Notes: a model not told the origin generated them from the sequence alone. Positions 7,001 to 28,949 are shown, counted from the first letter of the stretch. The stretch is 64,000 nt of DNA from Sulfurovum sp. NBC37-1 (GCF_000010345.1 NC_009663.1:558001-622000), one strand, 5' to 3'. Numbers and translations: made by a program.

Positions 7001-9330
7001 TAGTAACAAGAAGTTGGTTAAATGAATTTATAGATCTGAGCGAGGTCAGTAACGATACACTCTATGAAACGTTCAATGCCATTGGACTGGAAGTTGACAG
7101 TATCGACCAGGTAGAGATCGACCCCAAAGTCGTGGTTGGGAAGATCATTTCCTGTGAGAAACATCCGGACGCAGACAAATTGAATGTCTGTCAGATCGAT
7201 GTGGGTGGCAGGGTCGAGCAGATTGTCTGTGGAGCAGCCAATGTGCTTGATGCAGAGTATGTGGCTGTGGCGACCATCGGTGCCGTGCTGCCGGGTAATT
7301 TTGAGATCAAAGATGCAGAACTTCGCGGTGTGAAGAGTGCCGGTATGGTCTGTGCCTCTTCTGAACTCGGATTGCCTGAAATGGGCAAAGGGATCATGAT
7401 ACTCGATGAGAGCATCGGGGAGCTTGAAGTGGGGAAAGCGCTTGGTGAATACCCAACCGTTGCCGATACGATCATAGAGCTTGAACTCACAGCCAACAGA
7501 GGCGATTGCCTTAGTATCTATGGTGTGGCAAGAGATCTCAGTGCAGCGCTCAATATAGAGATGAAATCGTTCGAGTACAAGCAGGCTGAGAGAATGAAGC
7601 TTGGTATCGCCAGAGATGCAGAGTTACATACTGAAGGTGAAATAGATGCCGATCTGCGCTATAAGCTGGCAAGCATAGAATATATTGATGATACCTTCCT
7701 GATCCGACTTCGTTTGGCAATGGTCAATGTGGAAGCAGAAGGCAAACTGGACAGAATACTTGCCTATGCCACCCATACGACAGGAGTGATTCTGCGTGCG
7801 TATGACTGTGTGCCGCTCTGCAATGAAGATGACAAGATCATGGTGAGTCCCAGAGCCAAAGCTAAAGGTATCATAGAGATCTTTGCCCATGAGAAAGTAT
7901 TAAGTATCGTCGGTGTGAATCAGGTAGAGGATTATAAAGCAACGGATAATACAACAAAACTATTGATCGAAGCAAGTTACATTGATCCTGATCTTTTGGT
8001 TGAAGCCGTAGCTGAACATCAATTGAAAACAGATGAGCTTTACTATAAGACATCCAGAGGGTCCAATCCCGATCTTGGTCTTGGTCTGCAGTTCCTGGCT
8101 TACCTGATGGATAATTACAGCGATATCAACTGTTATGAAGGCTCGCTTGATGTACGTGTGGAACGTCATAACAAGAAGATCATTGTGGATTCCGGGGAAG
8201 TGTCATCCATCATCGGTATGGATGTAGAGATGAACAAGATTGTTACTATCCTGAAAAAGCTGGGGTTCGAGATTACGATGATGGACCATGAGCATGTGGC
8301 AGTGGCTGTACCATTGTTCAGACATGATATCAGGAATATTCAGGATATTACTGAAGAGATCGTTCGTATCATTGGCATTAACAATATTGAAGCCAAACCG
8401 TTTGTTTTTGCAGAGAAGAGACGTCTGAATGCCACTTCAGACCGTTTCAAAGCCAAGAAAAGTATTAAAAATCGTGCCGTAGGAAATGGTTTCTATGAGA
8501 ATGTTTCTTATGTCTTTACTGAAAGAGCAGTACTGGAGAAATACGGCTTTGAAACAGTGGAGACAGCGCTTGACCTTGCCAACCCGATTGCGGAAGAGCT
8601 TAATACGCTTAGGAGTACGATTCTGACAAATCTGCTCAATGCAGTAAAACGTAATGTCAGTTACACCAAGAAATCGATTCCGCTTTTTGAAATCGGTGCG
8701 GTATTCGGGAGTCAAAGAGAGGAATCCGAGGTGCTCTCCTTTGTCTTTTCCGGACAGATAGAAGGGGAGAATGTAAGTAATGCGGGTAAACCGAAAATGG
8801 TGGATTTCGCTTCCTTCACACAGAAGATCGGTGCTGTGGTTGGTGACTTTGACCTGGTACCCTGTACCAGGAATAATGCACTACTCCATCCTTACCAGTC
8901 TGCCGATATTATTGTAAACGGCAAAGTATGTGGATATATGAGCAAACTGCATCCGATGGTACAGGAGGAGTACGGGATCCCCGTGACGTTCATTGCAGAG
9001 CTTTCGCTGGATGCCCTGTTGCCAGAACATATCAGTGCAACACCTATTTCAAAATTCCAGGGAGTCTATAAAGATCTCAGTATCGTAATAGACAAATCTC
9101 TCTCATACTATGAAGTGGCCAAAGTACTGAACGGATTGGATATTCCGACACTTAAAGAGAGCTACCCGGTGGATATCTATGAAGATGAAAAACTGGGGAA
9201 CAAAAAGAGTCTGACTATCAGGTTCTTCATCCAGTCCATGGAAAAAACACTCGAAGACAGCGATATAGAAGCCGTGATGGCAGAAGTGATGCAGGCACTC
9301 GAGACCAACTGCAATGCGGAGCTGAGATAG
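6997..9330 (+). CDS. pheT: phenylalanyl-tRNA synthetase beta subunit
   Basis: 777 residues, normal length. PheT carries tRNA binding and editing. An EMAPII-like tRNA-binding domain lies at about residues 40-150 ([21 protein letters not shown]), followed by a divergent B3/B4 editing region (about 200-380), the B5 domain (about 400-475), the catalytic-like core and a C-terminal FDX-ACB anticodon-binding domain ending near residue 775. It overlaps pheS by four bases and is followed after one base by ispH, so the genes are probably one transcript. Confidence 0.96.
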
Positions 9331-20876: not shown

Positions 20877-21443
20877 ATGGCAACAATCGGAATGGGTGAC
20901 ATCAAAAAAGGCGTAAGACTTGAACTAGACGGCAACCCGTATAAAGTAACTGAATTCCAACACGTTAAACCGGGTAAAGGCGCGGCGTTCGTACGTGTTA
21001 AGATCAAGAACCTCAAAACAGGTAAAGTGATCGAAAAAACTGTACATGCGGGTGATAAATTCGAAGTGCCTGAACTCGAACAGAAGACAATGCAGTATCT
21101 TTACGATGATGGTGAGATGCTTCAGTTTATGGATACGACCACGTTTGACCAGATCGGTTTGACACATGAGCAGGTAGGTAAAGAGACATTTGATTTTATG
21201 ATAGACGGTATGGAAGCGGATATACTGTTCCATAACGGTGAAGCGATTTCTGTCGAGATCCCTCAGACAGTGGTACTCAAGATTGTTGAAACACCGCCTA
21301 ACTTCAAAGGTGACTCACAGGGTGGCAAGAAGCCTGCTACACTCGAGAGCGGTGCAGTGGTTCAGGTACCATTTCACGTACTGGAAGGTGAGATGATTAA
21401 AGTAGATACGGTCGAAGGCAAGTACCTCGAAAAGGCTAAGTAA
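20877..21443 (+). CDS. efp: translation elongation factor P
   Basis: 188 residues, full length. EF-P binds stalled ribosomes between P and E sites and relieves arrest at polyproline. The loop KPGKGAAFV places a lysine at residue 34, equivalent to the lysine modified by EpmA/EpmB in E. coli, so a lysine-type modification is possible. The three-domain layout and the C-terminal signature region ([21 protein letters not shown], about 142-162) are intact. It has its own promoter and stands alone. Confidence 0.97.
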
Positions 21444-21574: not shown

Positions 21575-23545
21575 ATGGATATATTAAATAATTTTTTACA
21601 TAGTGGTTATACTTTTTCCGATGAAGAATATGAGTTAAAATCAAAATTTTCTTTATTGAATAGTGCAATAGCTGTTATTTTAATCTTTATATCTTTTTTA
21701 ACTATATCCATGATTGTTAAGGAAGAAACCTTTTTTGCATCTTTTCTTTGCGTTTATATTTTTCTAAGTATAGGTCTAGTTTATCTTCTAAGAAAATCAA
21801 AAGATAACTATCAAATAGTAATTCCAGTATTTACAATAATCAGTCTCATCCTCTTATTGACAGCAATAAGTATATTTCCAAATGAACATGAACGTGTAGC
21901 ATGGTTTTTAGTTATTATTATTTTTTCATTTTTCCTTGGTGGTAGACAGTTAGGTGTCGCCATGACACTAATGAGTATTGTTGGTATTATCAGTATTGAC
22001 TATTTTGTAGATATGGGATTAAGTTTTTATTCTCTTATGTTAATAATAGTCATTATTTTAATTGGCTCTGTACTTGTTGATTTATATGAAAAAAGAGATA
22101 AAACAGCAAAAAAAAGATTATACAAGCTGAATAATAGTTTGGAGCTAAGAATAAAAGAGGAGATAGAAAAACGTATCTTGATCTATGAAAAAAGCAATCT
22201 TGACTTGAAAGAGAGTTCGAAAAAACTTAAACAACAAAAAGATGCATATAAAAAACTTGCGTATTATGATATTCTTACCAAATTGCCAAATCGTGTTTTA
22301 TTTTATGATAGATTAAAGCATTCTATTGATAAAAGTAAACGAAACAATACTAAACTGGCAGTATTGTTTCTGGATCTTGACAACTTTAAGGAAATTAATG
22401 ATTCTTTGGGACACCACGTTGGTGACAATGTATTAAAGATACTTGCAACGAGACTACAAAAAAGGCTTCGAAAATCAGATACTTTGGCAAGACTCGGCGG
22501 AGATGAATTTACCTTGCTTTTAGAAGACTTGGAAGATCTCTCCAATATTGGTGAGATTTCTCAAAGTCTTATTCAGGTTATTTCAAAACCTATAAAGATA
22601 AAAGAACATACACTCTATGTAACAGTAAGTTTGGGTATTAGTATCTATCCCGATGATGGGCAAGATACGGAAAGCCTTTTAAAATGCGCTGATGCAGCTA
22701 TGTACAGTGCCAAGAATGAGGGATGTAATTTATTTCATTTTTATAAACAAGAGATGACAGTAAAAGCGCTTGAGAGAATTACCTTCGAGACAAGCATACG
22801 ACATGCACTTGACAATGACGAATTCATAGTTTACTATCAACCATTAATTGATATTAGAACAAATCAATTGATTGGACTGGAGGCATTGTTAAGATGGCAA
22901 CATTCTGAAAAAGGATTATTGTCCCCAGATAAATTTATTCATATTGCAGAGACAAGTTCTATTATTATTCAAATTGGAGAAAGAGTCTTGGAAGATGTTG
23001 CTGCGCAATTAGAAATATGGCATGAAAAGGGATTTAATCCAGAACGCATTGCGGTTAACCTTTCTGTTAAACAGTTGCGTCACCATGGCTTAATATCAAT
23101 CATTTCAGATATTTTAGAAAAAACAAAATTCAGACCTAAGTGGTTGGAACTGGAAATTACAGAAAGTTATACAATGCAAAAACCTGTTCAGGCAATAAGA
23201 CTTCTCAATCAGATTAAAGATCTTGGAGTCGATCTCACTATTGATGACTTTGGTACAGGATATTCGTCTCTCTCTTATTTAAAAAAGATACCGGTAAATA
23301 AATTGAAAATAGATAGAGCATTTATAAAAGACATTACTGAAAATAAAGATGATAAAGCACTTGTAAGTGCTATTTTGTCTATGGCCAAGAGTATGAATCT
23401 TGACGTAGTTGCAGAAGGTGTTGAAACTGAAGAGCAGAGACAATGTCTAGAAGCACTTGGTTGTTATAAAATACAAGGATACCTTTTTTCAAAACCTATG
23501 TCCGTAAGCGATATAGAGAAAAAATATATTGAAAATAAATCATAA
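21575..23545 (+). CDS. membrane GGDEF-EAL protein (cyclic di-GMP synthase/phosphodiesterase)
   Basis: 656 residues. About six hydrophobic helices fill residues 27-170, followed by a coiled-coil linker (about 175-225), a GGDEF domain (about 228-395) and an EAL domain (about 410-650). The GGDEF signature is exact (RLGGDEF near 306-312) and is preceded by an RKSD inhibitory-site motif. The EAL domain keeps E-A-L (near 434), NLSVKQL, LEITES, DDFGTGYSS and VAEGVETEEQ, so both activities could be intact. The membrane part has no loop long enough for a periplasmic sensor and may sense a lipid-like ligand. The DNA is markedly more AT-rich than its upstream neighbours. An RpfF-like gene follows after 13 bases, suggesting signal synthesis and c-di-GMP turnover are linked. 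No good ribosome binding site precedes this ATG. Confidence 0.92.
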   Translation: MDILNNFLHSGYTFSDEEYELKSKFSLLNSAIAVILIFISFLTISMIVKEETFFASFLCVYIFLSIGLVYLLRKSKDNYQIVIPVFTIISLILLLTAISIFPNEHERVAWFLVIIIFSFFLGGRQLGVAMTLMSIVGIISIDYFVDMGLSFYSLMLIIVIILIGSVLVDLYEKRDKTAKKRLYKLNNSLELRIKEEIEKRILIYEKSNLDLKESSKKLKQQKDAYKKLAYYDILTKLPNRVLFYDRLKHSIDKSKRNNTKLAVLFLDLDNFKEINDSLGHHVGDNVLKILATRLQKRLRKSDTLARLGGDEFTLLLEDLEDLSNIGEISQSLIQVISKPIKIKEHTLYVTVSLGISIYPDDGQDTESLLKCADAAMYSAKNEGCNLFHFYKQEMTVKALERITFETSIRHALDNDEFIVYYQPLIDIRTNQLIGLEALLRWQHSEKGLLSPDKFIHIAETSSIIIQIGERVLEDVAAQLEIWHEKGFNPERIAVNLSVKQLRHHGLISIISDILEKTKFRPKWLELEITESYTMQKPVQAIRLLNQIKDLGVDLTIDDFGTGYSSLSYLKKIPVNKLKIDRAFIKDITENKDDKALVSAILSMAKSMNLDVVAEGVETEEQRQCLEALGCYKIQGYLFSKPMSVSDIEKKYIENKS

Positions 23546-23558
23546 ACAAGGAAAAAAT

Positions 23559-24545
23559 ATGGATAAAGAGTTTCATAGATTATTGCGAGACAGGGGTGAA
23601 ATTACCGTACGATATGATCCTGAAACAGAAGCAATATGGGGGTATTCAAACCCAAGTTTAAGACCATGTTATAATATGGAACTATTGAATGAATTTAGAC
23701 AACTTCAACTGGATATTATAGATTACTTTAAGTATTGTGATATGAAACCAGTAACACCGATAAAATATTTTGTTCATGCTTCACAAATACCCGGAATATA
23801 TAATTATGGTGGTGATCTAAACCTGTTTTCCGAGTTGATTCAAAAGAAAGATGCTGATAGACTTTTTGAATATGCCAAAGTCTGTATAGATATTGTTTAT
23901 ATGAATGCAGTTAATTTACATCTCCCAATTACAACAATAGCACTTGTTGAAGGTAATGCTCTTGGTGGTGGTTTTGAAGGAGCTATCTCTCATAGTATTA
24001 CTATTGTGGAAGAGCAAAGTCAGATGGGTCTTCCTGAGATTAGATTTAATCTTATTCCCGGAATGGGTGCTTATAGCTTTTTAGCCAGATCGGTCGGTAT
24101 TAAACTGGCGGAAGAAATTATTGCCAGCGGAAAAGTATATGATGCTGCAACATTGCATGAAATGGGGGTGATTACCCAAGTAGTAAAAAGAGGAGAAGGT
24201 GAAAAAGCGGTTAATCAATATATGAAAAGAAATAGTCGTCTGTTTAATGGTATGCAGGCGTTACAGGCAGCCAGACAACGGTATGCTCCACTTGACTATG
24301 AAGAGTTAATAGATATTACTAAAATCTGGGTTGATGCAGCACTTAGGCTGGAACCAAAGGATTTAAAAATGATGAAAAAACTGGTAGATGCACAAAATCA
24401 AAAAAACATTGATATGAACTATAAACTCAGAACAAAGCAAGATCGTAGATTTGAGAAAGGTGGTTCTGATTTTCCGTATACTGATAGTGATGGCAATATA
24501 GTACTTCATGATCGAAGATCTCATAAAGATCCTCGTTCACATTAA
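23559..24545 (+). CDS. RpfF-like crotonase, putative DSF (diffusible signal factor) synthase
   Basis: 328 residues of the crotonase fold. The segment ALVEGNALGGGFEGAI and the later MGLPEIRF...PGMGAYSF follow RpfF of Xanthomonas and Burkholderia closely as I recall it, and the two catalytic glutamates fall at E140 and E160, matching E141 and E161 of RpfF. RpfF releases cis-2-unsaturated fatty-acid signals from acyl-ACP. The chain is about 40 residues longer than Xanthomonas RpfF, with a polar C-terminal tail. The ATG at 23559 is chosen because AAGGAAAA lies just ahead; an in-frame TTG at 23529 overlaps the previous gene. A plain enoyl-CoA hydratase is the alternative but fits the flanking motifs less well. 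Confidence 0.83.
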   Translation: MDKEFHRLLRDRGEITVRYDPETEAIWGYSNPSLRPCYNMELLNEFRQLQLDIIDYFKYCDMKPVTPIKYFVHASQIPGIYNYGGDLNLFSELIQKKDADRLFEYAKVCIDIVYMNAVNLHLPITTIALVEGNALGGGFEGAISHSITIVEEQSQMGLPEIRFNLIPGMGAYSFLARSVGIKLAEEIIASGKVYDAATLHEMGVITQVVKRGEGEKAVNQYMKRNSRLFNGMQALQAARQRYAPLDYEELIDITKIWVDAALRLEPKDLKMMKKLVDAQNQKNIDMNYKLRTKQDRRFEKGGSDFPYTDSDGNIVLHDRRSHKDPRSH

Positions 24546-24575: not shown

Positions 24576-27500
24576 TTATTTAAATACTTTTCCGCAATCC
24601 CTTATGATTGCACCCGGTACGGTTGCGATGGTCATGAACTCCGACATTTGAAGCAGCGGGTACATGACAGAGATATAATACTTCGGTTCCATGATCTTGG
24701 CTTCACCGTTCTCTATGAGGATAGGATAAGGGAGCAGGGCGGCATTGTTCGTACCGATACGTCCAATGAATTTACCGGTACGTCTGCCAAGTGCTACGCC
24801 GATCAGGGTCGCACCGTTATCCAGTTTCTGTACGAAGAGTACTTTCTTGTTGTTCTTGATCTTGGAAAGCAGATTGTCCCCTCTTGCTACTACGACCATA
24901 TCCTGGTATTTTGGCATGCCGTGCATGAACTGGTAGTTTGGAAGCAGCTGGAACTTTAGTTTGTCTTTGGAATTCAGCAGATTTTCGAAGTTATCTGTGA
25001 TCTTCTTGAGTGTTGCTTTGGCTGCCTTGTCGTCATACTGATCCTGCATGAATGCCTTGGCCATGTATATCGGGTTGGTAATACTGATATGGTTATCTTT
25101 TTTGTCGACAAGCAGACGCAGTGAAGCCGCGAAACCACGGTTCTTTTTGCTGGCCATTTTTGTCAGCTCTTTGTCTGTAAAGACGATGGAGACCAAATTT
25201 CCTTTTTTATCAAGTGTTGTTTCTCCCAAAATGGTGAAGCCGGCTTTTTTGAGTCGTTTTTCAGCTTCTTTAACATCAATGTATTTACCTCTGATATAGG
25301 CAGGTACCCTGCCATGAACTACTTCACCTATATCCGTTGCCGTATTTTTCGCTTTCCCTTTAGCTATTCTCTGTTCCGGAGGAATGTAATTCGGAGGCAT
25401 ACGTTTGGAAAATTTGATCGAGCGGTCCAGTATCCCCTGTTGCGTATGGAACGTTTTGACTTTAACTGGTTCCACAGGCTTTGGTGGTACCGGAAGTGTG
25501 ATCTCAACTGTCTTATTACTTGTTGGGATCTTGATGGTTTTCTTCGTCTCTGTAGTCGTGGCTGTTTTTGCTTTTGTTTCTTCTTTTTTAGCTGATGGTT
25601 TGGCAGGTACTATCGGTACTTTTCTCTTCTGTGTTACGGCTGGTTTTGCAATCGGTTTTGGTGAACCGGTCAGTGGATTGACATTCGGAATGGCCTTCAT
25701 TCCCAGGGAAGTGAGAAGTTCAGGTATCTCCCTGTCAAGCTTCTCTACAAGTTTGACCCTTTTTTCATCCGTGATACCAAGACTGTCGGTCCAGTTATGC
25801 AGTCTGTACATACCTACTATGAGTTTGTTGCTTCCTTTGGGAATGAACATATACATGGTACAGGGTGCGAAGAGCCCTGCAAGCGGTTTTGCATTTTCAG
25901 TGTCGAACATATTGTAGGAGAACTCAAGATGACAGAGTGAGTAGGTCCAGAAAGCATCGTAGTCTTTCAGGACTTCCGCGGCATCGGGTGTACCTTCCAT
26001 GAAGTTATGATAGCCGGCTATGAGATACTCCTTCTCGATGAAGGCATCTTCGAATTTCCCTTGAAACTCATCCATAAAATCTTCAATATCTTCCACAGGT
26101 TCAAAGGTGTATTCATAGGTCAGCATCGTCTGTTCCGGCAGCTTTTTCAGCGGAAGATGGCTTTTTTTGCCACCCAGCTCTTTTTCGATCATCGCATCGA
26201 GTGCGACAAAGCTTTCCGTGAAAGTATCTCTGACCTTTTGATCTTTTATACCAAGGATATCCAGCATCACTTTGGGAGAGAGATGCCCCACCTGTGTGAA
26301 ATCTTCATCCAGTTTCTTGGCAATGAGCATATTGAAAGGGCCGAAACCGGAAATACGGGGATCGATGTTGAGCAGGGGAAGCATCATTTTGTCATTGACA
26401 ACGGGCATGAAGCTCAGTACATCCAGAACGGTTGAACCATATTTCTTTTTATATTGGTCATTGACCCTTTTGTGCGGGTCGGTGAGGTTGAATCCTATGG
26501 TCTTTAGTTTCTCTTCCATCATGGCATTGTATTTCTTCTCGACATCGCCTTTGATTGTATACATGGTTGCCAGATTTGTCTTTCCGGTACTTTTTGCTGT
26601 AGGGGGGACAGGCGTAACTACGGATATCTTTTCAGGTATTTTCTTCTGTGCTGTTTTGAAGAGTGTTTTTGGATTGACATTGGGAATAGCCTTCATGCCC
26701 AGGGAAGTGAGAAGTTCAGGTATCTCCCTGTCAAGCTTCTCTACGAGTTTGACCCTCTTTTCATCTGTAATGCCGAGTGAGTCCGTCCAGTTGTGCAGTC
26801 TGTACATACCTACTATGAGTTTGTTGCTTCCTTTGGGAATGAACATATACATGGTACAGGGTGCGAAGAGCCCTGCAAGCGGTTTTGCATTTTCAGTGTC
26901 GAACATATTGTAGGAGAACTCAAGATGACAGAGTGAGTAGGTCCAGAAAGCATCGTAGTCTTTCAGGACTTCCGCGGCATCGGGTGTACCTTCCATGAAG
27001 TTATGATAGCCGGCTATGAGATACTCCTTCTCGATGAAGGCATCTTCGAATTTCCCTTGAAACTCATCCATAAAATCTTCAATATCTTCCACAGGTTCAA
27101 AGGTGTATTCATAGGTCAGCATCGTCTGTTCCGGCAGCTTTTTCAGCGGAAGATGGCTTTTTTTGCCACCCAGCTCTTTTTCGATCATCGCATCGAGTGC
27201 GACAAAGCTTTCCGTGAAAGTATCTCTGACCTTTTGATCTTTTATACCAAGGATATCCAGCATCACTTTGGGAGAGAGATGCCCCACCTGTGTGAAATCT
27301 TCATCCAGTTTCTTGGCAATGAGCATATTGAAAGGGCCGAAACCGGAAATACGGGGATCGATGTTGAGCAGGGGAAGCATCATTTTGTCATTGACAACGG
27401 GCATGAAGCTCAGTACATCCAGAACGGTTGAACCATATTTCTTTTTATATTGGTCATTGACCCTTTTGTGCGGGTCGGTGAGGTTGAATCCTATGGTCTT

Positions 27501-27659
27501 TAGTTTCTCTTCCATCATGGCATTGTATTTCTTCTCGACATCGCCTTTGATTGTATAGATCACTGCAAGCGAATCGTCATTATTGGTATCGGCAGAGAAT
27601 AGGGAGAGGGGGATGAAGAACAGCAGGCTTAGAATGAAGAACTTTTTAAAAATAGACAT
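24576..27659 (-). CDS. secreted protein with near-identical tandem duplication (function unknown)
   Basis: 1027 residues. The start at 27659 is chosen because TAAGGAT lies at the right distance; an ATG six bases earlier sits too close to it. A signal peptide (about 1-23, ending LFSA) is followed by two copies of a roughly 330-residue unit (period 332 residues, 996 bp), a Pro/Lys/Thr-rich linker (about 675-760) and a different C-terminal domain (about 780-1027). The unit copies differ only at their edges. Parts such as FAPCTMYMFIP followed by a C-terminal helix recall DUF302-type folds, but I would not assign that firmly. The C-terminal domain resembles the product of 37585-38646 (YQFM-GMP, GD-LLSK). 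It probably lies in the periplasm. Confidence 0.85.
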   Translation of the reverse strand: MSIFKKFFILSLLFFIPLSLFSADTNNDDSLAVIYTIKGDVEKKYNAMMEEKLKTIGFNLTDPHKRVNDQYKKKYGSTVLDVLSFMPVVNDKMMLPLLNIDPRISGFGPFNMLIAKKLDEDFTQVGHLSPKVMLDILGIKDQKVRDTFTESFVALDAMIEKELGGKKSHLPLKKLPEQTMLTYEYTFEPVEDIEDFMDEFQGKFEDAFIEKEYLIAGYHNFMEGTPDAAEVLKDYDAFWTYSLCHLEFSYNMFDTENAKPLAGLFAPCTMYMFIPKGSNKLIVGMYRLHNWTDSLGITDEKRVKLVEKLDREIPELLTSLGMKAIPNVNPKTLFKTAQKKIPEKISVVTPVPPTAKSTGKTNLATMYTIKGDVEKKYNAMMEEKLKTIGFNLTDPHKRVNDQYKKKYGSTVLDVLSFMPVVNDKMMLPLLNIDPRISGFGPFNMLIAKKLDEDFTQVGHLSPKVMLDILGIKDQKVRDTFTESFVALDAMIEKELGGKKSHLPLKKLPEQTMLTYEYTFEPVEDIEDFMDEFQGKFEDAFIEKEYLIAGYHNFMEGTPDAAEVLKDYDAFWTYSLCHLEFSYNMFDTENAKPLAGLFAPCTMYMFIPKGSNKLIVGMYRLHNWTDSLGITDEKRVKLVEKLDREIPELLTSLGMKAIPNVNPLTGSPKPIAKPAVTQKRKVPIVPAKPSAKKEETKAKTATTTETKKTIKIPTSNKTVEITLPVPPKPVEPVKVKTFHTQQGILDRSIKFSKRMPPNYIPPEQRIAKGKAKNTATDIGEVVHGRVPAYIRGKYIDVKEAEKRLKKAGFTILGETTLDKKGNLVSIVFTDKELTKMASKKNRGFAASLRLLVDKKDNHISITNPIYMAKAFMQDQYDDKAAKATLKKITDNFENLLNSKDKLKFQLLPNYQFMHGMPKYQDMVVVARGDNLLSKIKNNKKVLFVQKLDNGATLIGVALGRRTGKFIGRIGTNNAALLPYPILIENGEAKIMEPKYYISVMYPLLQMSEFMTIATVPGAIIRDCGKVFK
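25798..26561 (-). repeat. long direct repeat, copy 2 in gene order
   Basis: About 764 bases that by eye match 26794-27557 without a difference (offset 996 bp). It encodes the second of the two repeat units in the secreted protein above. Similarity continues at lower identity on the 3'-of-gene side (about 25685-25797 against 26681-26793), showing that the duplication is older and the core has been homogenised. Confidence 0.85.
26794..27557 (-). repeat. long direct repeat, copy 1 in gene order
   Basis: Partner of 25798-26561, same strand, 996 bp apart. It encodes the first repeat unit. Identity stops sharply at 27557, where the gene-specific N-terminal coding sequence begins. Confidence 0.85.
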
Positions 27660-27683
27660 AGGCATATCCTTAGAATAATTAAT

Positions 27684-27689
27684 ATTATA
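27684..27689 (-). promoter_or_regulatory. -10 box of the tandem-repeat secreted protein gene
   Basis: The complement reads TATAAT in TATCCTATAATATTAA, about 25 bases before the start codon at 27659. Confidence 0.5.
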
Positions 27690-27749
27690 GGATAGCATAT
27701 TCCTTATATATATAATAAATGAAATTAATGATTTTTGATCAATAGAAGT

Positions 27750-27797: not shown

Positions 27798-28949
27798 TTA
27801 TTTGTGTGCGTCGTTATCGTCAGCCACTTCTTTCACTGATTTTCTTGTCTCTTTTGAGATCGTTTTGGTAGAGTCGTTCGCATTGTCAGAAACTTCTTTT
27901 ACAGAATCTCTTGAATCATTAGAGATCGTTTTTGTAGAGTCATTGACATTATCGGAAACTCTCTTGACAGAATCTCTGGAGTCGTTGGAGACTGTTCTTG
28001 TTGTATCATCGAGGTCGTTGGAAACTTCTTTTACAGAATCTCTTGTATCGTTGGAAACAGTTTTGACTGAGTCTCTTGAGTCGTTGGAAACTGTTTTAAC
28101 GGAATCTCTTGAATCATTAGAGACTGTTTTTGTTGTTTCGTCAAGGTCGTTGGAAACGGTCTGAACAGAATCTCTTGTATCGTTGGAGATCGTTTTTGTA
28201 GAATCATTCACATTGTCAGACACATCTTTTACAGAATCTCTTGTATCGTTAGAAACAGTTTTCACTGAATCTCTTGAGTCATTTGAGACAGTTTTAACTG
28301 AGTCTCTTGAATCATTGGAAACTGTTTTAACGGAATCTCTTGAGTCATTTGAAACGGTTTTCACTGAATCTCTCGAGTCGTTGGAAACGGTTTTAACCGA
28401 GTCTCTTGAATCGTTTGAAACGGTTTTGACTGAATCAGTTGTATCGTTCGAGACAGTTTTTACGGAATCTCTTGAATCATTGGAAACTGTTTTAACGGAA
28501 TCTCTTGAGTCGTTGGAAACAGTTTTTGTTGCATCATTGATATCTTTTGAAACTGAAATAGCTGAATCTTTAAAATCTTTGGATGCGATCGTCGTAGAAT
28601 CTTTAAGATCTTTCGTAGTATTTGTAATAGAATCTTTTGTATCTTCTGCTACTTCCACTGTTGCATCTCTGACATCTTTACTTGTTGAAACCTGTGCTGT
28701 TTTAAGGTCGTCAGATACTTTGACAGATGTATCTTTTGCATCCGCACTTACATTGGTTACGGTTCTTTCAGCACTCTTACTTGTTTCTACTGCACCGTCT
28801 TTCATGGACTCGACGCTGTCTTTAGCATCTTTACTCATAGAAATCGCTGCTTCTTTCATATCTTTGAACATGTCTCCAAAGCTAAAATCTGCTTGAGCAC
28901 TTGTTAAAAGTGCCGCTGCTGCTACACATGAAATTACTGTTTTTTTCAT
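27798..28949 (-). CDS. periplasmic 11-residue-repeat protein, LEA/apolipoprotein-like
   Basis: 383 residues: a clear signal peptide (about 1-20, ending SAQA) and then about 33 consecutive 11-residue units to the C-terminus. Nine units read exactly SRDSVKTVSND; others vary (TRDSVKEVSND, VNDSTKTISND). The units have no Pro, almost no Cys or Trp, and alternate charged and small polar residues with Val/Ile at fixed places, so an extended amphipathic helix or coiled coil is expected. Eleven-residue repeats of this kind are known from LEA group 3 desiccation proteins and some lipid-surface proteins; a role in envelope protection is inference. The 33-bp DNA repeats make copy number prone to change. 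Confidence 0.85.
   Translation of the reverse strand: MKKTVISCVAAAALLTSAQADFSFGDMFKDMKEAAISMSKDAKDSVESMKDGAVETSKSAERTVTNVSADAKDTSVKVSDDLKTAQVSTSKDVRDATVEVAEDTKDSITNTTKDLKDSTTIASKDFKDSAISVSKDINDATKTVSNDSRDSVKTVSNDSRDSVKTVSNDTTDSVKTVSNDSRDSVKTVSNDSRDSVKTVSNDSRDSVKTVSNDSRDSVKTVSNDSRDSVKTVSNDTRDSVKDVSDNVNDSTKTISNDTRDSVQTVSNDLDETTKTVSNDSRDSVKTVSNDSRDSVKTVSNDTRDSVKEVSNDLDDTTRTVSNDSRDSVKRVSDNVNDSTKTISNDSRDSVKEVSDNANDSTKTISKETRKSVKEVADDNDAHK

Follow-up and report, generated by a model that had tools for sequence, protein, structure and literature searches.

In silico analysis of a 64,000-nucleotide stretch of the Sulfurovum sp. NBC37-1 genome, referred to here as the window, revealed two adjacent genes on the plus strand, encoding a membrane protein with GGDEF and EAL domains and an RpfF-like crotonase. 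Sulfurovum, belonging to the Campylobacterota, is a deep-sea-vent type of bacterium. The locus comprises the following features, with coordinates counted from the first nucleotide of the window:

20877..21443, plus strand: efp (elongation factor P), conserved upstream flank, given for context only
21575..23545, plus strand: MASE6-like membrane GGDEF-EAL protein of 656 residues, first gene of the pair (Pfam; motifs intact)
21575..22099, plus strand: membrane input domain, residues 1-175, with about six transmembrane (TM) helices (hydropathy, AF2, blastp)
22259..22729, plus strand: GGDEF domain, residues 229-385, with the GGDEF motif and an RxxD I-site
22793..23497, plus strand: EAL domain, residues 407-641, catalytic residues present
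23548..23552, plus strand: AAGGA, likely Shine-Dalgarno sequence of the crotonase gene, 6 nt upstream of its ATG (direct reading)
23559..24545, plus strand: RpfF-like crotonase of 328 residues, PRK08788 family, with E140 and E160, second gene of the pair (NCBIfam, PDB, trees)
24423..24542, plus strand: C-terminal tail of the crotonase, residues 289-328, LRTKQDRRFE...DRRSHKDPRSH, also given with the ending DRRSGRDPR (alignments)
24576..27698, minus strand: DUF302-like open reading frame (ORF) of 1040 residues with a recent internal duplication
27798..28949, minus strand: repeat protein of 383 residues, mostly the 11-residue repeat NDSRDSVKTVS

The original prediction placed the crotonase 13 bases behind a six-helix membrane GGDEF-EAL protein, and this layout is confirmed: both ORFs are intact, and 13 bases lie between the stop codon of the first (23543-23545) and the ATG of the second (23559). 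Further downstream, the duplicated segment within the DUF302-like ORF spans about 1 kb (identical at 878 of 900 nt, with an exact run of 764 nt), and relatives of this ORF at loci L031, L099 and L103 measure 642-697 residues, consistent with a single copy. The repeat of the 383-residue protein is encoded by 33-bp tandem units at about 27889-28535, and the version at L031 is shorter.

The membrane GGDEF-EAL protein and its ancestry

The N-terminal domain of the first protein is a weak match to MASE6 (Pfam PF20966), with 19.8 bits against a cut-off of 27.4, while the L031 orthologue, with 29.6 bits, exceeds this cut-off. Hydropathy and a low-confidence AF2 model (pLDDT 66) concur in about six TM helices. 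Comparison of the model with the PDB returned the membrane cyclase ImcA as a weak match (E 0.16, probability 0.93, TM 0.43), on which no reading rests. The GGDEF and EAL domains score 178 and 253 bits in Pfam, both far above the cut-off, and the motifs expected of active domains of both kinds are all present: an RxxD I-site at 299, GGDEF at 308, EAL at 436, N495, E527, DD557-558, E614 and Q634. According to blastp, the membrane domain is the fastest-changing part of the pair, with 47-50% identity among orthologues, compared with 65-66% for the catalytic part of the same protein and 73-77% for the crotonase in the three other Sulfurovaceae genomes with the operon. Of 397 Campylobacterota genomes, 33 carry the MASE6-like domain, the window's own genome having a paralogue as well, and the RpfF-type crotonase is absent from the other 32.

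No PAS domain was found in the GGDEF-EAL protein by Pfam, and hhalign against the N-terminus of RpfR, with shallow alignments, detected nothing resembling the FI/PAS region. The catalytic half is 37-38% identical to RpfR/PdeR and up to 49% identical to paralogues of its own genome. In the catalytic-half tree, from which L060 (branch length 10) and other long rows were left out, as they were from the p-AU test, PdeR of E. coli and RpfR of Burkholderia group together at 100/100 as a sanity check, and the Sulfurovum partners group with paralogues of their own genome and phylum at 93/94. A single clade uniting all crotonase-linked partners with PdeR was rejected (p-AU 0.0037). The GGDEF-EAL partner as an RpfR orthologue was ruled out by the missing FI/PAS region and by the position of its catalytic half outside the RpfR/PdeR clade. 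Since it groups with its own paralogues and the crotonase-linked clade is rejected, the Sulfurovum partner is best read, from its sequence, as a local recruitment.

Assignment of the crotonase

The top curated match of the crotonase is NCBIfam PRK08788 (NF006452), where it scores 402.6 bits (cut-off 177). It scores 208 bits against the strict RpfF equivalog NF053515, whose cut-off is 550. As a control, the proven BDSF synthase RpfF of B. cenocepacia gives 412 bits with PRK08788 and 188 bits with NF053515, and because this enzyme also falls below the cut-off, NF053515 is too narrow to decide DSF synthesis. PRK08788 is itself a broad family, holding both proven DSF synthases and proteins from unrelated contexts. 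The nearest PDB relatives of the crotonase are RpfF structures, and it is 38% identical to Xcc RpfF, 35% to B. cenocepacia RpfF, 39-40% to relatives in Methylobacterium and Sphingomonas, and 16-21% to enoyl-CoA hydratases (ECHs). A phylogeny had been proposed as a check of the RpfF-like assignment; in maximum-likelihood trees the crotonase falls with Xanthomonas and Burkholderia RpfF and other PRK08788 members, separated at 100/100 from the hydratases of E. coli and Campylobacterota. A firm grouping with catabolic hydratases, named beforehand as a refuting outcome, was thus not seen. The trees give no resolution of its position within the RpfF/PRK08788 clade. An AF2 model of the crotonase built from two sequences only had a pLDDT of 38.7 and was left unused.

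The two glutamates E140 and E160, named beforehand, stand at those positions and correspond to E141 and E161 of Xcc RpfF, but ordinary ECHs have the same glutamates, and their use as proof of DSF synthesis was dropped. More telling is the conservation of the substrate pocket. The pocket residues named for Xcc RpfF are G85, L136, G137, G138, M170, W258 and L276 (PMC9864630), and in a hand-mapped alignment all are kept in the crotonase, as G84, L135, G136, G137, M169, W257 and L275; the C-terminal stretch bearing W257 does not align with ECHs. These residues are largely common to PRK08788 members without a c-di-GMP neighbour (Methylibium, Bosea and an E. coli plasmid). As the pocket is shared with such members and the glutamates with ECHs, sequence alone is no proof of DSF synthesis. 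Purifying selection acts on the gene, with pN of 0.15-0.17 against pS of 0.61-0.81 between the window and the paired orthologues, at synonymous sites near saturation. No relatives of the crotonase were found in viral contigs.

The matches of the crotonase to Pfam ECH_1 and ECH_2 and the many GGDEF/EAL genes of the genome (13 EAL and 18 GGDEF matches) lend some support to the view that it is a metabolic enoyl-CoA hydratase of the ordinary kind, placed beside a c-di-GMP gene by chance. This reading was already disfavoured and is considered very improbable, as the tree separates the crotonase from the ECHs at 100/100, the pair is kept across four divergent genomes, and a catabolic setting is missing. 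In the closed genome of 2,562,277 bases neither an acyl-CoA dehydrogenase nor FadB was found, although FadB-like proteins of about 730 residues do occur in other Sulfurovum genomes; a full thiolase was not found either, there being one partial thiolase-domain match in a 350-residue frame. A second stand-alone crotonase was likewise not found. The only other ECH_1 match of the genome sits inside a 548-residue protein that can be read as HypX-like, with formyltransferase and crotonase domains, which would make it no beta-oxidation enzyme. With acyl-CoA dehydrogenase and FadB missing, a beta-oxidation role is unlikely, and the catabolic candidate was ruled out by the tree together with the missing pathway.

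Conservation of the gene pair

The distribution of the pair was surveyed in 397 Campylobacterota genomes and 175 Sulfurovaceae genomes. In the former set the RpfF-type crotonase is present in one genome only, that of the window, the other matches being weak and of hydratase or FadB type; in the latter set it is present in seven genomes, with a remnant in one more. The survey also covered the arrangement itself, and the GGDEF-EAL gene is kept directly upstream of the crotonase gene in four genomes: that of the window, G475 (on the same contig as L031, the locus of the Sulfurovum MAG that is the nearest named relative), G418 and G447. The distance between the two genes is 13 nt in the window, 9 nt at L031 and 17 nt at L097, and at L099 they overlap. 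The efp gene lies upstream of the pair in all four genomes, and the order is the same at L031/L098, L097, L099 and the scarred locus L103; at L097 efp and the pair are separated by an apparent transposase ORF.

Other genomes contain traces of the arrangement. In G417 a contig begins within the crotonase gene, and a separate small contig carries the end of a membrane domain with 69% identity, fragments which are consistent with a GGDEF-EAL/crotonase pair. In G480 all that is left between efp and the DUF302-like gene is a frame-broken piece of the crotonase C-terminus (L103, about 7400-7600); the GGDEF-EAL gene is gone from this locus, so that the two genes of the pair have been lost together there. 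Two diverged Sulfurovum crotonases (52-55% identity) were found in G499 and G449 (L101 2219-3199 and L102 1-504), genomes of 74% and 80% completeness, respectively. No GGDEF-EAL gene was seen beside either; the contig of G449 starts inside the crotonase gene and its upstream side is unseen. At L101 the 591-residue ORF upstream of the orphan crotonase reads as a radical-SAM protein (YgiQ-like), and a phosphatase-like ORF lies downstream.

The charged C-terminal tail of the crotonase is kept in the Sulfurovaceae homologues, even in the orphans at L101 and L102, and is missing from the proteobacterial RpfF proteins in the alignment. Such a tail could serve in an alternative arrangement, in which the GGDEF-EAL protein binds the crotonase directly and so regulates it, while sensing takes place elsewhere. 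A precedent is provided by the established contact of RpfR with RpfF, where the FI domain of RpfR inhibits the enzyme (PMC6361424), and the Sulfurovaceae-specific conservation of the tail and the stop/start overlap at L099, which suggests coupled production, point in the same direction. However, the tail also persists in crotonases without a GGDEF-EAL neighbour, and the RpfF-contacting FI domain is missing from the Sulfurovum partner; we regard direct contact as improbable.

GC3 is 23% in the pair and about 50% in the genes around it in the window, a contrast which is smaller in low-GC relatives. This low GC3, together with the identical placement, suggests that the pair was replaced at this locus, or transferred to it, from low-GC Sulfurovaceae.

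With about 2,450 genes assumed for the genome, the chance that a random gene has a GGDEF/EAL neighbour is estimated at about 1-2%. Against this expectation, the retention of the pair in four divergent genomes and the GGDEF-EAL neighbours of proteobacterial crotonases argue for more than a chance association. In the proteobacterial sample, which consists of plasmid records, GGDEF-EAL pairing was found in four of seven plasmid lineages with a PRK08788 crotonase. The neighbour is RpfR in Burkholderia and, in M. extorquens, a GGDEF-EAL protein for which two TM helices are predicted, and in a human-gut contig an EAL fragment lies near a crotonase relative. No GGDEF-EAL neighbour was found for the PRK08788 crotonases of Methylibium, Bosea and the E. 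coli plasmid. The last of these (L038 4941-5774; IncK2/Z plasmid NZ_CP060058) lies by ABC-transporter and lipoprotein-sorting genes, a setting unlike DSF signalling, and that of Methylibium (L037 4881-5831; plasmid RPME01) lies between genes for an iron-containing redox enzyme and a ferritin.

Proposed function and comparison with known systems

We lean towards reading the pair as a DSF-type signalling module, in which a fatty-acid product is coupled to c-di-GMP. Its basis consists of (i) membership of the RpfF clade; (ii) intact catalytic and pocket residues of the crotonase; (iii) intact GGDEF and EAL domains; (iv) a tight, conserved operon; and (v) a genome without beta-oxidation. On the sequence evidence the crotonase is a likely DSF synthase. 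Following RpfF chemistry (PMC4504480), it would take 3-hydroxyacyl-ACP from fatty-acid synthesis, dehydrate it to the cis-2-enoyl form and then cut the thioester bond to set free a cis-2-unsaturated fatty acid, probably along with some saturated acids; homology gives good support to the step yielding the cis-2 acid. The membrane GGDEF-EAL protein, expressed with the crotonase, would then shift the c-di-GMP level on encountering either this product within the membrane or the crotonase itself. If RpfR (PMC6361424) is a guide, phosphodiesterase activity would likely rise and cells would switch between sessile and motile life. We infer the identity of the product, its export, and both the occurrence and the direction of sensing. 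That the membrane domain directly senses the product of the crotonase is plausible, given the gene linkage and the RpfR analogy; against it stand the frequent occurrence of the MASE6-like domain without a crotonase, the diverged crotonases without a partner, and the missing FI/PAS region.

The enzyme may instead be an RpfF-type thioesterase/dehydratase of lipid remodelling and the six-helix domain a reader of membrane state, the pair linking fatty-acid supply to c-di-GMP within one cell and with no quorum sensing involved. RpfF enzymes are indeed broad thioesterases that free ordinary fatty acids (PMC4504480), the GGDEF-EAL protein is without a known DSF-binding domain, and its widely used MASE6-like domain may respond to a general membrane cue. 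On the other hand, the RpfF relatives with a known role produce signals, and the repeated pairing with GGDEF-EAL proteins of unrelated inputs suggests a shared, product-specific link. We therefore hold the lipid-remodelling explanation to be rather unlikely.

More broadly, RpfF synthases may have repeatedly recruited GGDEF-EAL partners with unrelated inputs: the FI-PAS RpfR, membrane-anchored proteins in Alphaproteobacteria and the MASE6-like protein in Sulfurovaceae. The six-helix domain would then represent a new class of fatty-acid receptor with direct turnover of c-di-GMP at the membrane, within the first DSF circuit of Campylobacterota. This generalization is tentative, and we place it on the doubtful side. 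The repeated pairing suggests that selection preserves the coupling of the fatty-acid signal to c-di-GMP, whereas sensors are swapped.

To our knowledge, work on DSF signalling has been confined almost entirely to Proteobacteria. If the module reading is true, it extends to the chemolithoautotrophic Sulfurovaceae, a dominant group in vent and sulfidic biofilms, and the MASE6 domain class, for which our analysis turned up no ligand, gains a specific and testable one. The enzyme kind and the signalling domains are already known; what is new is that the partner is a MASE6-like membrane GGDEF-EAL protein, a pairing of which no description was found. The original prediction knew of no described DSF circuit of this form in Campylobacterota. 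This stands in that no DSF circuit of Campylobacterota was found in open-licence papers, but pairs of an RpfF-like crotonase and a membrane GGDEF-EAL protein are not confined to this phylum, since they also occur in Alphaproteobacteria.

In these alphaproteobacterial pairs, for which no description was found in the literature, an RpfF-like crotonase of Methylobacterium or Sphingomonas has as its neighbour, like that of Sulfurovum, a GGDEF-EAL protein containing several TM helices. However, they are convergent, whereas the Sulfurovum pair is co-directional, and the Methylobacterium partner has an additional PAS_7 domain. The membrane domains of the Sulfurovum and alphaproteobacterial partners are unrelated in sequence (hhalign probability 0.1%, with shallow alignments).

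The RpfF/RpfR systems of Burkholderia, Cronobacter and others likewise consist of an RpfF-type crotonase gene adjoining a GGDEF-EAL gene, and the Sulfurovum enzyme shares their clade and their catalytic and pocket residues. The differences relate to gene organization, convergent in RpfF/RpfR and co-directional in one operon in Sulfurovum, and to the partner: RpfR is a PAS-GGDEF-EAL receptor with an FI domain, in contrast to the Sulfurovum membrane protein, which has no FI/PAS region and a non-orthologous catalytic half.

Between 15 and 30 kb of the window the ORFs read as efflux parts, efp, the pair, the DUF302-like ORF and repeat proteins, and no hybrid histidine kinase or HD-GYP regulator was found beside the crotonase. 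The RpfF/RpfC/RpfG system of Xanthomonas has a crotonase of the same clade and, as proposed here, a multi-helix membrane input domain as the sensor; in contrast to RpfC/RpfG, the c-di-GMP domains of Sulfurovum sit on the membrane protein itself.
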